Origin: Methylococcaceae bacterium
GTDB lineage: Bacteria > Pseudomonadota > Gammaproteobacteria > Methylococcales > Methylococcaceae
Direction of reading: 5' to 3'
DNA: 33,292 nucleotides
Assembly (NCBI GenBank): GCA_028711365.1
Contig: JAQTSI010000011.1
Span: 1-33,292 of the forward strand
Below, piece by piece: positions 20,434 through 27,288 of the stretch (position 1 is the first letter of the stretch; every line of letters starts with the position of its first letter). A program made the translations under genes and the position numbers. The notes beneath the pieces were generated by a model. That model was given only the letters and a program-made list of their open reading frames with translations. It was not told where the DNA came from and searched no databases.

Positions 20434-21210
20434 ATGGGTATCAATGCCTGGTTGCGGGTGGGTGTGATTGCATTCACGGCCTTCTCTCTTTCCGCTTGCA
20501 GTTATATCGCCAGTCTGTTTCCCGACAAGCAGAAGCAATACCGCTACAGCGGCGAATTGCCGGATCTGGAATTGCCGCCCGATCTCCACCCTGTGGACAG
20601 CGAAGGCAAGGAAGGGCGGACAAAGCACCGCTTCCAGGTGGCGGACGAAAAATCCGACTCTGCTAGCAAAGCGAAGAGCGCTCCGACGGAGCCTAGGCGT
20701 GGAAGTCGCAAGCCGGCGAAACATGACAGTTCCACCGCGACCCTGGCCGCAACCGACGACAACGCCCCGCTGATCGAGATCGAAGAGACTCACGCCGAAG
20801 CTTGGAACGACGTGAACCGAGCATTGGGACGTTTGCAGATCGAAGTCATCGACCAGAATCGTTCGGACGGCATCTATTACGTCTACTTCGGTGGCGAACG
20901 GCCGAAAAAGGAGGAAGGTCTATGGAATTATTTGACCTCCTGGGCCAGGAGCGAAAAGGACAAAGCCAAGGAATTTCGCATCAAGCTCGAGGAGAAAGGA
21001 GATTCCACCCGGATACGGGTTTTCGATCAGGAAGATCATCCGGTGGCCGAGGGTCTAGGCTTGGATCTACTGAAACGCTTGCACGAAAAACTGCAACATT
21101 TATCCGAGCCGGAGCCCGAAGAAGGCAAACACCCGCCTGAGCCCGAGGAAGGTAAGCACCCGCCGGAGCCCGAGGAAGGTAAGCACCCGCCGGAGCCCGA
21201 GAAAAAATGA
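20434..21210 (+). CDS. bamC: BamC (NlpB)-like outer membrane assembly lipoprotein, short form with repetitive acidic/proline tail
   Basis: Lipobox [26 protein letters not shown], then BamC-like domain ([25 protein letters not shown]); immediately downstream of dapA. Confidence 0.85.
21112..21192 (+). repeat. 27-bp in-frame tandem repeat x3 (EPEEGKHPP) plus partial fourth copy, in bamC 3' end
   Basis: Units 21112-21138, 21139-21165, 21166-21192; the last two are identical, the first differs at a few bases. Confidence 0.95.
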
Positions 21211-21241: not shown

Positions 21242-24200
21242 ATGATACTGAAGATTAACGGCGCAAGCGCACTCTCCGCATTCAGAAAACGGAAGCTGAA
21301 ATCCCGGCTTCAGGTCCAGGATTCGGAGATTACCGATGTTGCGGCGAACCATGTGTATTTCGTCGAGCTCGAACGGGCTTTGACTGGCGGGGAGTCCAAA
21401 ATCCTGGAACGGATCTTAGGTCCGGGTCTAGCTTTGCCAAAAGCCCATTTCCTGGTCGTGCCGCGCCTAGGCACGGTTTCGCCGTGGTCCAGCAAGGCTA
21501 CGGATATCGCTTTGCGCTGCGGCTTGAGCGCGGTCAAGCGAATCGAGCGGGGGATCGAGTATTTCGTCGAGGGCTTGCCCGAGTTGTCTCTGCCCCGCCA
21601 TGAGGCCATCAAGCGGCTTTTGCATGACCGCATGACTCAGGCGGTGCTCGGTCGCGGCGATTACGAGGCGATTTTCCAGCATCAAAAGCCGGGAAAACTG
21701 GGCTATGTTCCCTTGATCGAGGAAGGGCGTTGGGCCCTGGTGAAGGCCAACACCCGGCTTGGGCTGGCGCTTTCCGATGATGAACTGGATTATCTGGAGC
21801 AAAGCTTCACCGCGCTGAACCGCAATCCCACCGATGTGGAACTGATGATGTTCGCCCAGGCCAATTCCGAACATTGCCGCCACAAGATCTTCAACGCGAG
21901 CTGGAGAATCGATGGCGAACAGCAGCCGGCGAGCCTGTTCGGGATGATCCGCAACACCCGCGATGCCAGCCCGGACGGCATCATTACGGCGTATAGCGAC
22001 AATTCCGCCATCATCGAAGGCCCGTCCGCCCAGGTATTCCTGCGCGATCCGCAGACTCTGGAATACGGCTACATTCAGGAAAGTGTCCCCATCCTGATGA
22101 AGGTGGAGACCCATAACCATCCCACCGCCATCTCTCCCCACCCCGGCGCGGCCACCGGTTCGGGCGGCGAGATCCGCGACGAGGCCGCCACCGGCCGAGG
22201 CTCCCAAACCAAGGCCGGCTTGAGCGGTTTTTCCGTCTCCCACCTGCGCATTCCCGATTTTCTCCAGCCGTGGGAAGTCGACCACGGCAAACCCGCCCGC
22301 ATCGCCTCGGCGCTGGACATCATGCTGGAAGGGCCGATCGGTGGGGCGGCGTTCAACAACGAATTCGGCAGGCCCAACCTGGCCGGCTATTTCCGCACCT
22401 TCGAACAGACCGATCCTAGCGGTGAGGGTCTATGGGGCTATCACAAGCCCATCATGATCGCCGGCGGCATGGGCAATATCAGGCCGCAACTGGTCGCCAA
22501 GGAGCGGATTCCGCCCGGCGCGGTCATCGTGGTGCTGGGCGGTCCCGCCATGCTGATCGGCCTGGGTGGCGGAGCGGCCTCCTCGCAGGCTTCCGGCGAA
22601 GGGGGAGAGGAGCTGGATTTCGCCTCGGTGCAGCGGGAAAACCCGGAGATGCAAAGGCGTTGCCAGGAGGTCATCAACCGCTGCAACAGCCTGGGGGAAG
22701 CCACCCCTATCCTGTCCATCCACGACGTAGGAGCGGGCGGCATCTCCAACGCCATCCCCGAAATCATCCACGACAGCGGGCGCGGCGGGCATTTCGAACT
22801 GCGCCGGGTCCACTGCGACGAGCCCGGCCTTTCGCCCTTGCAGATCTGGTGCAACGAGGCGCAGGAGCGCTATGTGCTTGCCCTCAACCCCGAATGGCTG
22901 GACTTGTTCGACGAGTTCTGCCGACGCGAGCGTTGTCCCTACGCGGTGGTCGGCCATGCCACGGAACGGGAAGAACTGGTGCTCAACGATGAACTGTTCG
23001 GCGATCGCCCCATCGATCTTCCCATGTCGCTGCTGTTCGGCAAGCCGCCGAAGATGCACCGCGAGGCGGTCCGCATCCAACCGAAACTGCCGGCTTTGGC
23101 GCTAACGGATGTCCGCATCGACGACGCCGCGCGCCGGGTGCTGGCGTTCCCGGCGGTGGCGGACAAGAGCTTCCTGATTCATATCGGCGACCGCTCGGTG
23201 GGCGGATTGGTGGCGCGCGATCAGATGGTGGGTCCCTGGCAGATCCCGGTGGCCGACGTGGCGGTCACCGCGAGCGGGTTTCATGCCTATACCGGCGAAG
23301 CCATGGCCATGGGCGAGCGCAGTCCGCTGGCGATCATCGATGCGCCGGCTTCCGGCCGCATGGCCATAGCCGAGGCGCTGACCAATCTCGCCGCCGCGCG
23401 TATCCAGTCGCTGGGCCAGGTGAAATTGTCCGCCAACTGGATGGCGGCAGCGGGGACAGCCGGCGAGGACGCCCGCCTCTACGACACGGTGCAAGCGGTG
23501 GGGATGGAATTGTGTCCCGCCCTCGGCGTCGCCATTCCGGTCGGCAAGGACTCCCTGTCTATGAAAACGCTCTGGCGGGAAGGCGATCAGGAAAAACGGA
23601 TGACCTCGCCTATCTCGCTCATCATCTCCGCTTTCGCGCCGGTGCTGGACATCGCCCGCACCCTGACGCCGCAACTGAAGCTGGATGTCGGGCCCACCCG
23701 GCTGGTTTTGATCGACTTAGGTGTGGGCAAGAACCGGCTGGGCGGCTCCGTGCTGGCCCAGGTCTATGGCCAGATGGGCGATGACTGCCCGGATCTGGAC
23801 GATCCCCAGTTGTTCAAGTCCTTCTTCGCCGCCATCCAATCCCTCAACGAAGCTGGATTATTGCTTGCCTACCACGACCGCTCCGACGGCGGCTTATGGG
23901 CGGCGGCCTGCGAGATGGCCTTCTGCGCCCGCACGGGTGTGGAAATTTCCCTGGACGGATTGGGCGATGATCCTTTGGCGGCTCTTTTCAACGAAGAATT
24001 GGGCGCTTTGCTCCAGGTGCGCGAGGATCATCTCGAATCGGTATTGGGACGGCTGCAGGAGGCCGGTTTGCAGGGTTGCCTCCATGTCCTCGGCATGCCG
24101 CGCGCCGACCGGCGCATCGCCGTTAAGCACCGGGGCGAGGTTTGGTTCTCAGCCAGCCGCGGCGAATTGCACTCGATCTGGTCGGAAACCAGCTACCGGA

Positions 24201-25105
24201 TGCAGGCTTTGCGCGATCATCCCGAATGCGCCAAGGCGCAGTTCAGCGCCCTGCTCGACGAGGAAGACCCGGGGTTGCATGTTAAGCTGAGCTTCGACAT
24301 CCAGGAAGACGTGGCGGCGCCCTTTATCCTGGCCGCCCGGCCGCGCATCGCCATCCTCCGCGAACAGGGCGTCAACGGCCATGTGGAGATGGCGGCGGCC
24401 TTCGACCGCGCCGGCTTTTCCTGCGTCGATGTGCATATGAGCGACATCATCGAAGGCCGGATCAAGCTAAAGGATTTCATCGGCCTGGCGGCTTGCGGCG
24501 GTTTTTCCTATGGCGATGTGCTCGGTGCGGGCGGCGGTTGGGCGCAGTCCATCCTATTCAACCCGAGGGCGCGGGAAGAATTCGCGGACTTCTTCGCCCG
24601 CGGCGATACCTTCGGCTTGGGGGTGTGCAACGGCTGCCAGATGATGGCGCACCTGCATGAACTCATACCCGGCGCATCGCACTGGCCCCGATTCGAGCGC
24701 AACCTGTCGGAACAGTTCGAGGCGCGGGTGGCGATGGTGGAAGTGCTGAAATCCCCTTCCCTGTTCCTGGCCGGCATGGAAGGCTCGCGCATGCCCGTGG
24801 TCGTCGCCCACGGCGAGGGCAGGGCTCAGTTCCGGGACGATCCGCACCAGGTTTTGAAAGCAGGCCTGGTGGCTCTGCGTTACGTGGACCATCATGGCCG
24901 GGCCAGTGAAAACTTTCCTTTCAACCCCAATGGTTCGCCCCTGGGCATCACCGGCCTGACGAACCAGGACGGACGCTTCACCTTGATGATGCCGCACCCC
25001 GAGCGTTGTTTCCGCACGGTGCAAAATTCCTGGCATCCCGCCGATTGGGGCGAGTATGGCCCCTGGATGCGCCTGTTCCGCAACGCCCGGGTTTGGGTGG
25101 GATAA
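21242..25105 (+). CDS. purL: Phosphoribosylformylglycinamidine synthase, large single-chain form
   Basis: 1287 aa; [46 protein letters not shown]-terminal glutamine amidotransferase with GVCNGCQMM and MPHPERCFR. Confidence 0.98.
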
Positions 25106-25285: not shown

Positions 25286-25351
25286 GTCATCCTTGCCCCC
25301 AAGTATCATCGTCATTGCTCCCAATGATCGCCATCATTGCCCCTGAAAGTT
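25286..25351. repeat. Three degenerate 22-bp tandem units
   Basis: gtcatccttgcccccaagtatc / atcgtcattgctcccaatgatc / gccatcattgcccctgaaagtt; TTGC recurs at 25293, 25315, 25337 (22-bp spacing). Confidence 0.75.
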
Positions 25352-25400
25352 ATGTCAACTCCGATGATTTGTTTTCTAAGCCACCTATTCTGCAGTGAAG

Positions 25401-25426
25401 GGTTCCCAAGCTGGAGCTTGGGAACC
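25401..25426. repeat. Perfect inverted repeat, 12-bp arms with 2-nt loop
   Basis: GGTTCCCAAGCT-GG-AGCTTGGGAACC. Confidence 0.95.
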
Positions 25427-25435
25427 AGGGGAAAG

Positions 25436-25750
25436 GGTTTTGCAAGCCTACTCTAAGATTTGGCAGACCTGCCAAGCGATTTGGCAAGCATGCAGAATGA
25501 TTTGGTAGAGCTGGCAAGTGATTTGGCAAGCGTGCAGAATCATTGGGCAGGTTTCCCCGATGGTTTTGCATCCTTGCATAATGGTTGTGCCTGTTTGCCA
25601 AATGATTTTGCAAGGTTGAATAATGGCTGTGCATAATTGCCAAATGATTTGGCAATGATGCAGGATGATTTTGCATCCTTGCCAAATCTCGTGGCGGGCG
25701 TGCAGAATGATTTTGCAAACTGGCGCAGGGGTTTGGTAATCAAGCGTAGC
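25436..25750. repeat. Degenerate tandem array, about 15 units of exactly 21 bp, each with dyad symmetry
   Basis: Parsed by eye with no indels from 25436: e.g. gatttggcaagcatgcagaat (25478), gatttggcaagcgtgcagaat (25520), gattttgcatccttgccaaat (25667). Consensus GATTTkGCAnnnnTGCmnAAT; arms ATTTkGCA / TGCmnAAT. The last unit is marginal and overlaps the REP-like element. Confidence 0.9.
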
Positions 25751-25780
25751 CCGGATGGAGCGTAGCGGAATCCGGGATGA
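25746..25780. repeat. REP-like palindromic element
   Basis: CCCGGAT (25750-25756)...ATCCGGG (25770-25776) within TAGCCCGGATGGAGCGTAGCGGAATCCGGG, a form I recognise as common in proteobacterial intergenic DNA. Confidence 0.65.
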
Positions 25781-25804
25781 ACGGAGCCACGAAGCCCGAT
25801 AGAA

Positions 25805-25831
25805 GGATGCGCTGAGGAACGAACCGCATCC
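25805..25831. repeat. Second REP-like inverted repeat
   Basis: GGATGCG (25805-25811) ... CGCATCC (25825-25831). Confidence 0.55.
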
Positions 25832-25856
25832 ATCATGTGAATCCATCGAAAGCCTT

Positions 25857-25903
25857 TGATCCTGACAGATTGCCGATGTGTCCACGAAAGCGTGGCAGGA
25901 TCA
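25857..25903 (-). terminator. Composite inverted repeat downstream of the minus-strand FAD enzyme; possible terminator
   Basis: TGATCCTG (25857-25864)/CAGGATCA (25896-25903) enclosing CCACG-aaag-CGTGG (25882-25895); lies 3' of the stop at 25945 on the minus strand. Confidence 0.3.
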
Positions 25904-25944: not shown

Positions 25945-27288
25945 CTAAAGCTCCAGCCGCTCCATGAAATGGGTGCGGGCCGGGGATGAGCCGCGATCCA
26001 GGCCCGCTTCTCGTATCAGGCGGTGGAAGTTTTCCGAGCGCTCGGACATGAACGAGGCGGCCAGCATCAGTTCCAGCTCAACCTTCGGCACCGAGCGCAT
26101 GAAGTGTTGCACCAATTGCGCATCCACACCGTCGCCGCCGAATTCGCCCAGCGCCAGGGAGCGGGAGAATCCATAAAACTGCCGCATGCGGTTCTCGCAC
26201 AGTTGCGCATGGCGGGCGCTACGAGATGGGTCTTTGAGCGACTCGTTCACCGCCAAGGCGGTCATGCTGGCATTGTAAAACGCGTTCAATACCCCGTGGG
26301 AATAGATGGGGTCGACGAACGAGGCGGCATCGCCGATGCAATAAAAGTTTTCCCCGCAGAGTCGGGTCGAATAATAGGAATAATCCGGCCGTTCGCAGAA
26401 CGAATTGTCCTGGTACTCGGCGGGCTCCAGCAGCCGATCGAGGTGGGGAGTGCGCCGGCAGGTTTCCAGGAAGAAGCGTTCGCGCTCGGATCTGTTCATG
26501 CCGCGGGTGCGGTCGGTGTTGATGACCAGGCCCACGCTGGTCAGCCGGCGCAGGGCGATATGCCAGATCCAGCCGTCCTCGAAGGAAGTGACGAATGTGA
26601 CCGGTTTGACCTTGCCGATGTCGGCAGCCGGATGGCTGGCGCCGTCGCTGGCGATGAAGCGGGCATTCTCGTAATAGCCCCACAGGGACAGAAACCGCAT
26701 GCGCGAGTCGATCAGCTTTCTGGATTTGAATTGTCCGGCCAGCAGGGCGCTAGCTCCGCTGGCGTCGATGACATAACGGCAGACTATGCTGCCCTCGCAG
26801 GCGTTGCCGCCGCGTTTATCCAGATAATGAACCCTAGGCCGGGAACCGCCGAAATCGACCCGGTTGACGGCGACTTGTTGATGGATCTTGGCGCCTTGGT
26901 TTTCGGCATGATTCAGCAGAAGCTGGTCGAAAACATCCCGTTCCACATGCAGGGCAGGGCGGGTGAATCCGAATTCGGCAAAAGCGATGCGGTGGATCTT
27001 GCCGTTCCAGGCGGAGATGCCGCCGGCTTTTTCGATAAAGCCCGCTTGTTCGATGAGCCCCGAAGCGCCGGTTTGGTCGGCATATTTCCAGAAATGGGGG
27101 ATCAGGCTCTCGCCCACCTGGGGGCGGGGATGGCGGGCTTTTTCCAGCAGCACCACGTCGATGCCGTCTTTGGCCAACAAAGCCGCCACGCTGGAGCCGG
27201 CGGGACCGCCGCCGATCACCAGGACATCGCAGCCTTGGGGGATTTCACCGTGCATGGCCATGACCCCGGCGGTGCCCGGAGCCTCCAT
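25945..27288 (-). CDS. FAD-dependent oxidoreductase, flavin halogenase-like (tryptophan halogenase/geranylgeranyl reductase superfamily)
   Basis: DVLVIGGGPAGSSVAALLAKDGIDVVLLEK dinucleotide-binding motif, VGESLIP, EDGWIWHIAL (near WxWxI), YCIGDAASFVDPIYSHGV. The ORF-track extension to 27834 is antisense to the next gene; start likely 27288, 27261 or 27255. Confidence 0.85.
   Translation of the reverse strand: MEAPGTAGVMAMHGEIPQGCDVLVIGGGPAGSSVAALLAKDGIDVVLLEKARHPRPQVGESLIPHFWKYADQTGASGLIEQAGFIEKAGGISAWNGKIHRIAFAEFGFTRPALHVERDVFDQLLLNHAENQGAKIHQQVAVNRVDFGGSRPRVHYLDKRGGNACEGSIVCRYVIDASGASALLAGQFKSRKLIDSRMRFLSLWGYYENARFIASDGASHPAADIGKVKPVTFVTSFEDGWIWHIALRRLTSVGLVINTDRTRGMNRSERERFFLETCRRTPHLDRLLEPAEYQDNSFCERPDYSYYSTRLCGENFYCIGDAASFVDPIYSHGVLNAFYNASMTALAVNESLKDPSRSARHAQLCENRMRQFYGFSRSLALGEFGGDGVDAQLVQHFMRSVPKVELELMLAASFMSERSENFHRLIREAGLDRGSSPARTHFMERLEL

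Follow-up and report, generated by a model that had tools for sequence, protein, structure and literature searches.

A 21-bp tandem array with dyad-symmetric units in a Methylococcaceae bacterium, very probably a new member of the constant-size class of bacterial satellites

The array and its locus

The window analysed here is a stretch of 33,292 nucleotides from the genome of a Methylococcaceae bacterium (assembly GCA_028711365.1, contig JAQTSI010000011.1, positions 1 to 33,292). The array under study lies in the window between two convergent genes, amid the following features.

21242-25105, plus strand: purL (FGAR amidotransferase), left neighbour
25332-25434, no strand assigned: left flank, another dispersed repeat, 88% identical to C138:30647-30750
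25350-25718, 25448-25885 and 25540-25836, minus strand: open reading frames (ORFs) overlapping the array, from the ORF list
25436-25750, no strand assigned: 21-bp tandem array of 15 units, consensus GATTTKGCA-N4-TGCMNAAT, with 42-bp dimer alternation
25436-25519, no strand assigned: units 1-4, mosaic left end of the array, from comparison with C279 and C308
25541-25561, no strand assigned: atypical unit, CATTGGGCAGGTTTCCCCGAT, one of the 15 units
25743-25797, no strand assigned: right flank, repeat CCCGGATGGAGCGTAGCGGAATCCGGG, dispersed in this genome and in four congeners
25945-27288, minus strand: Trp_halogenase / FAD-dependent family protein, right neighbour, convergent to purL

Elsewhere in the window, a 27-bp tandem repeat of 3.5 copies (21108-21201) overlaps the end of an NlpB/DapX-family gene (20434-21210).

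A preliminary description of this DNA had reported about 15 units with an exact 21-bp period and no indels, and this was borne out: 15 units follow one another in register from position 25436, units 1 and 15 being degenerate, and TRF recovers 21- and 42-bp arrays without indels inside 25457-25687. The self-match of the array is 0.558 at lag 21 and 0.674 at lag 42; the 21-bp period is clear, and 42 bp is the stronger period because neighbouring units alternate in pairs. Shuffled sequences, which the same description had named as the control, gave a periodicity far below that observed (lag-21 self-match of 0.255 +/- 0.027 with a maximum of 0.337 in 1000 dinucleotide shuffles; best self-match at any lag from 2 to 89 of 0.381 in 500 shuffles). 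The further claim of one strand without stops in any of its three frames holds in part, in that three minus-strand ORFs overlap it, but each minus frame carries one or two stops across the whole array.

The locus is pieced together from repeats, and the array itself has a mosaic end, units 1-4, which are far more diverged from the related arrays on contigs C279 and C308 than units 5-15 are. The left-flank repeat contains a palindrome, GGTTCCCAAGCTGGAGCTTGGGAACC, at 25401-25426, and its copy on contig C138 is not directly followed by such an array. As a separate observation, this repeat of about 100 bp (the C138 copy lies in L161) is apparently the duplicated 3' end of a gene (reading ...IIAPES..FSKPP..Q*), followed by the GGTTCCCAAGCTGGAGCTTGGGAACC palindrome.

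A dispersed family of ten homologous arrays

Searching the whole genome (4.77 Mb, 454 contigs), we found ten homologous arrays, on contigs C59, C206 (the window), C210, C219, C228, C274, C279, C306, C308 and C350, and a reversed control pattern had no match anywhere in the genome. The arrays of C279 and C308 share 88-89% identity with that of the window. The odd unit of the window array, at 25541, carries GGTTTCCCC, and a TTCCCC-bearing unit occupies the equivalent position in nine of these ten arrays, indicating that all ten descend from one ancestral array. The register is kept in every one of them, and differences in length amount to whole 21-bp units.

Across the 137 units of these arrays, the consensus GATTTKGCA-N4-TGCMNAAT, the dyad arms and the GCA and TGC cores given in the preliminary description were all upheld. 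The cores are the most conserved part of the unit (G7 in 136 and C16 in 130 of the 137 units), the centre (positions 10-13) is weak, at 0.3-0.55 bits, and dyad symmetry is significant in 10/10 arrays (p <= 0.01 at 21 bp). Read directly, the half-sites TTTKGCA and TGCMNAA alternate in orientation at intervals of about 10-11 bp. Given that DNA has a helical repeat of 10.5 bp per turn, this spacing of one turn places all half-sites on one face of the DNA, and the data fit the helical phasing proposed earlier, with two turns per unit. To compare arms with centres, we took only recently separated copies, namely units 5-15 of C206, C279 and C308, in which arms differ at 3.9% of positions vs 11.4% for centres (Fisher p = 0.002). 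The lower divergence suggests constraint on the arms, to which gene conversion between arm-sharing units could contribute; we infer selection rather than conversion. Constraint at the DNA level on both register and arms appears probable.

The arrays have moved as defined segments. C210 and C219 have 358 bp in common at 97% identity, comprising array and flank, with sharp ends and unrelated surroundings, and the right flanks fall into three groups (C206/C279/C308, C210/C219 and C306/C350). Within this species, copies of segments some 0.36 kb long, array included, have come to lie at new intergenic sites. The suggestion that such arrays favour convergent intergenic regions was sustained for this family alone: the window array and 4 of the 9 classifiable homologous arrays lie between convergent genes, vs 11-13% of background spacers (p ~0.02, calculated by hand with 12.6% of intergenic bases as the expectation, on small numbers and weak gene calls), but homologous arrays also occur between tandem or divergent genes, and no convergent-gene bias was seen for the other 21/42-bp families of the genome sample described below.

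Among the genomes searched, the family is restricted to this species. BLAST of 60 relatives returned no homologous array, nor did a pattern search that allowed mismatches in 37 further genomes of the bacterial family (six congeners and 31 others), and in a sample of the order the pattern at one mismatch gave a single match, in one other genome. The C210 array lies downstream of a gene whose aminopeptidase-like identity was read by eye from its sequence; near the orthologous site, none of the congener loci has a 21/42-bp array. As the family is missing from congeners, any function it has would be dispensable at the genus level.

Further 21- and 42-bp arrays within and beyond this genome

A period scan of 880 kb of the same genome, chosen without regard to arrays and including a few stretches from contigs that also bear the window family, found about 15 further 21/42-bp arrays, mostly of unrelated sequence, together with one 22-bp array; arrays of other periods were few, and most of those overlapped predicted genes. 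One of the further arrays (L166) looks coding and another (L083) is ambiguous. Extrapolation gives roughly 80 such arrays for the whole genome, a figure that may be too low because several lie at the ends of contigs. In one congener, a sample of 413 kb contained no non-coding 21/42-bp array. Among 15 such arrays of the present genome that are unrelated in sequence to the window family, 8 again show dyad symmetry (p <= 0.01 at 21 bp); several families lack it. Three other families (L085, L109 and L170) show a 1-bp indel or register slip, vs none in the ten window-family arrays. Strong inverted-repeat arms were seen in unrelated arrays at L113 87-441, L146 248-535, L167 61-561, L169 7951-8305, L092 507-784 and L085 10019-10259; those in L167 and L169 lie on separate contigs and represent the same family in two copies.

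We also scanned GTDB species genomes with an exact two-unit pattern, a search that fixes both motif and spacing. It matched 16 loci in 15 other genomes, whose record titles name Bacteroidetes, Verrucomicrobia, Planctomycetaceae, Pyrinomonadaceae and others; about eleven of the loci are real 21-bp arrays of at least five units, which shows that 21-bp arrays are widespread. The motif itself is rare, occurring in 1 of 298 genomes of one phylum, which was the seed itself. A gap test in ten of the matching genomes, all picked by their 21-bp pattern, returned only 21- and 42-bp steps. Because motif and spacing were set by the search and the motif is rare, we claim neither shared descent nor a shared binding protein across phyla. 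Several matching genomes have a second 21-bp array of other sequence nearby, as seen next to TTTGCA-type arrays of other phyla at L074 4662-4870, L076 1547-1805, L067 1653-2515 and L065 3984-4084. A single exact two-unit match also occurs in a 75-kb viral contig, IMGVR_UViG_3300046408_000009 (L081 2824-2858).

Class membership, possible roles and known likenesses

The preliminary description could name no element that the array resembles, and in this respect it has to be revised. Subirana and Messeguer (IJMS 2021; PMC8161180) described tandem repeats in bacteria whose length is constant, at 20-21 or 52 nt, while the sequence varies; they are species-specific, generally non-coding and present in many bacterial groups, have 40-41-nt doubles and are of unknown function. 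The window array shares every feature of this class that could be assessed: its unit length of 20-21 nt or the double is kept constant, the genome holds several unrelated families of the same length (about 15 further arrays in 880 kb), the family is species-specific (none in the six congeners and 31 other family members) and it is not protein-coding. We are therefore highly confident that it is an interspersed intergenic satellite and a new member of the 20-21-nt class. A match to an already classified satellite, which the preliminary description had raised as an objection, accordingly exists at the level of the class but not of the sequence family.

Several more familiar readings of such an array fare poorly. 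A protein-coding reading, with the array lying inside a gene for heptad repeats (7 aa per 21 bp), would accord with a unit length divisible by three, with the minus-strand ORFs and with heptad-like translations such as DLASMQN, but none of the frames stays free of stops through the ten arrays, the open frames vary between copies, GCA keeps its wobble base in 123/137 units and a codon-usage gene call picks no ORF over the array; on the lack of a common frame and the conserved wobble base we reject this reading as extremely improbable. Equally remote is an array belonging to a mobile replicon, be it of iteron, partition-site or CRISPR type. Repetition of dyad sites at roughly two helical turns is reminiscent of iteron and partition arrays in general, but the family occupies ten dispersed loci beside ordinary genes (in the window, purL and the halogenase-family gene), both flanking genes and four other scanned neighbours encode metabolic or envelope proteins, and comparison of the array with plasmids and phages gave no match above threshold. 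A CRISPR array would consist of near-identical repeats and unique spacers, but the array is made of head-to-tail 21-bp units with 4-bp centres in which every unit diverges, arms included; the only Rfam CRISPR match was sub-threshold and outside the array, in agreement with the preliminary description that the geometry is not that of a CRISPR.

A role as RNA deserves somewhat more weight and is nonetheless improbable. The array might supply 3'-end hairpins to two convergent transcripts, for mRNA protection or as a transcription barrier, or be a source of small RNAs, in keeping with its convergent setting, with folding energies far below those of dinucleotide shuffles on both strands (z ~ -5 to -7) and with the transcription of the 52-nt Bacillus satellites (PMC8625621). 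However, the window array folds no better than column-preserving shuffles (z -0.5 and -0.2), the arm pairs within a unit do not covary, so that hairpin covariation beyond the consensus is rejected, homologous arrays lie between tandem or divergent genes also, and an Rfam covariance-model search gave no match at the curated cut-off. Better folding than in column-preserving shuffles was seen in some other families (L085, L143 and L167) and, on one strand, in two of the homologous arrays. An RNA role is not supported for the window array but may apply to part of the 21/42-bp class.

The preliminary description had seen selection on spacing, as for an operator array or protein scaffold, or else an old satellite. 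The data fit the claim as worded, and the choice among its parts is divided between a protein-binding array and a non-functional satellite, the former hardly more probable than the latter. A selfish or neutral satellite would expand by in-register unequal recombination or slippage with a favoured step of 21/42 bp and be carried along with segment copying, its dyad symmetry being a trace of array origin, for instance from short palindromes, instead of a binding site. This account, which we consider a serious contender though short of even odds, is consistent with the differences in unit number, the mosaic left end of the window array, the near-identical duplicate cassettes of C210 and C219, the absence of the family from congeners and the several families without dyad symmetry. 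On its own it does not explain why one period spans many unrelated sequences or why arms are less diverged than centres.

Protein binding at the array, with candidate sites read through spacing and symmetry, is a view that we hold tentatively. It is suggested by the register kept strictly across all 137 units of the ten arrays, the smaller divergence of arms between recent copies, the dyad symmetry of the ten arrays and of about half of the unrelated ones, the many unrelated sequences that have only the 21/42-bp period in common, and, for the window array, the intergenic position, the lack of a conserved coding frame and of unit-wise RNA covariation. The authors who defined the class proposed either a protein polymerising on repeats of fixed size, which also speaks for binding, or small RNAs (PMC8161180). 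Against it, the likeness of arms could come from gene conversion between units and not from selection, the family is absent from congeners, and 1-bp indels occur in L085, L109 and L170.

What stays constant is the 21-bp register with the short arms TTTKGCA and TGCMNAA, which sets inverted half-sites about one helical turn apart on one face. The arrays may then be helix-phased platforms to which a DNA-binding protein, dimeric or polymerising, attaches cooperatively, and bound arrays would more likely structure the nucleoid or insulate neighbours than serve one gene. Our leading, still tentative, overall reading is thus of a 21-nt-class satellite whose arrays could serve as cooperative protein-binding platforms. 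A bolder version, which we regard as unlikely, is that the 21/42-bp arrays of this genome form a genome-wide set of phase-locked ladders, with half-sites of alternating, inverted orientation about every 10.5 bp. A putative protein, or family of proteins, that structures the nucleoid would polymerise on them and recognise spacing and symmetry more than the sequence itself; if true, this would explain a constant unit length with differing sequences. The 20-21-nt satellites are a published puzzle of constant length, variable sequence and no known function, and this genome, with perhaps 80 arrays vs none in the congener sample, recent copies with sharp ends and recurrent symmetry, makes it possible to put to the test the idea of a protein that may require repeats of one size: the prediction is inverted half-sites one helical turn apart that are sensitive to half-turn rephasing.

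In iteron and operator arrays, sites recur on the same DNA face at intervals of about two helical turns, a spacing found here too, but no cognate rep or regulator gene was seen at the array, and the present arrays occupy many loci with many unrelated motifs at the same spacing. REP/BIME and STAR-type repeats are dispersed, intergenic, partly palindromic and species-specific, as is the present family; set against their general description, the arrays differ in being long, in-register and tandem and in combining a single, fixed period of 21 bp with numerous unrelated motifs, and no known REP or STAR sequence was recognised in them. The closest likeness is to the class of Subirana and Messeguer (PMC8161180), mainly drawn from Bacillus genomes, with which the arrays share the 21-bp unit, the doubled forms of 40-42 bp, several unrelated families per genome, species-specificity, a mostly non-coding nature, patchy taxonomy and a short conserved signal in the units; its authors also remarked that 21 bp makes two helix turns. 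Dyad symmetry, undiscussed there for the 20-21-nt repeats, is recurrent here, and copying as a defined cassette is newly seen. To that class our analysis adds recurrent dyad symmetry, half-sites of alternating orientation at a spacing of one helical turn, 42-bp dimers, the difference in divergence between arms and centres, and the copying of cassettes of about 0.36 kb.
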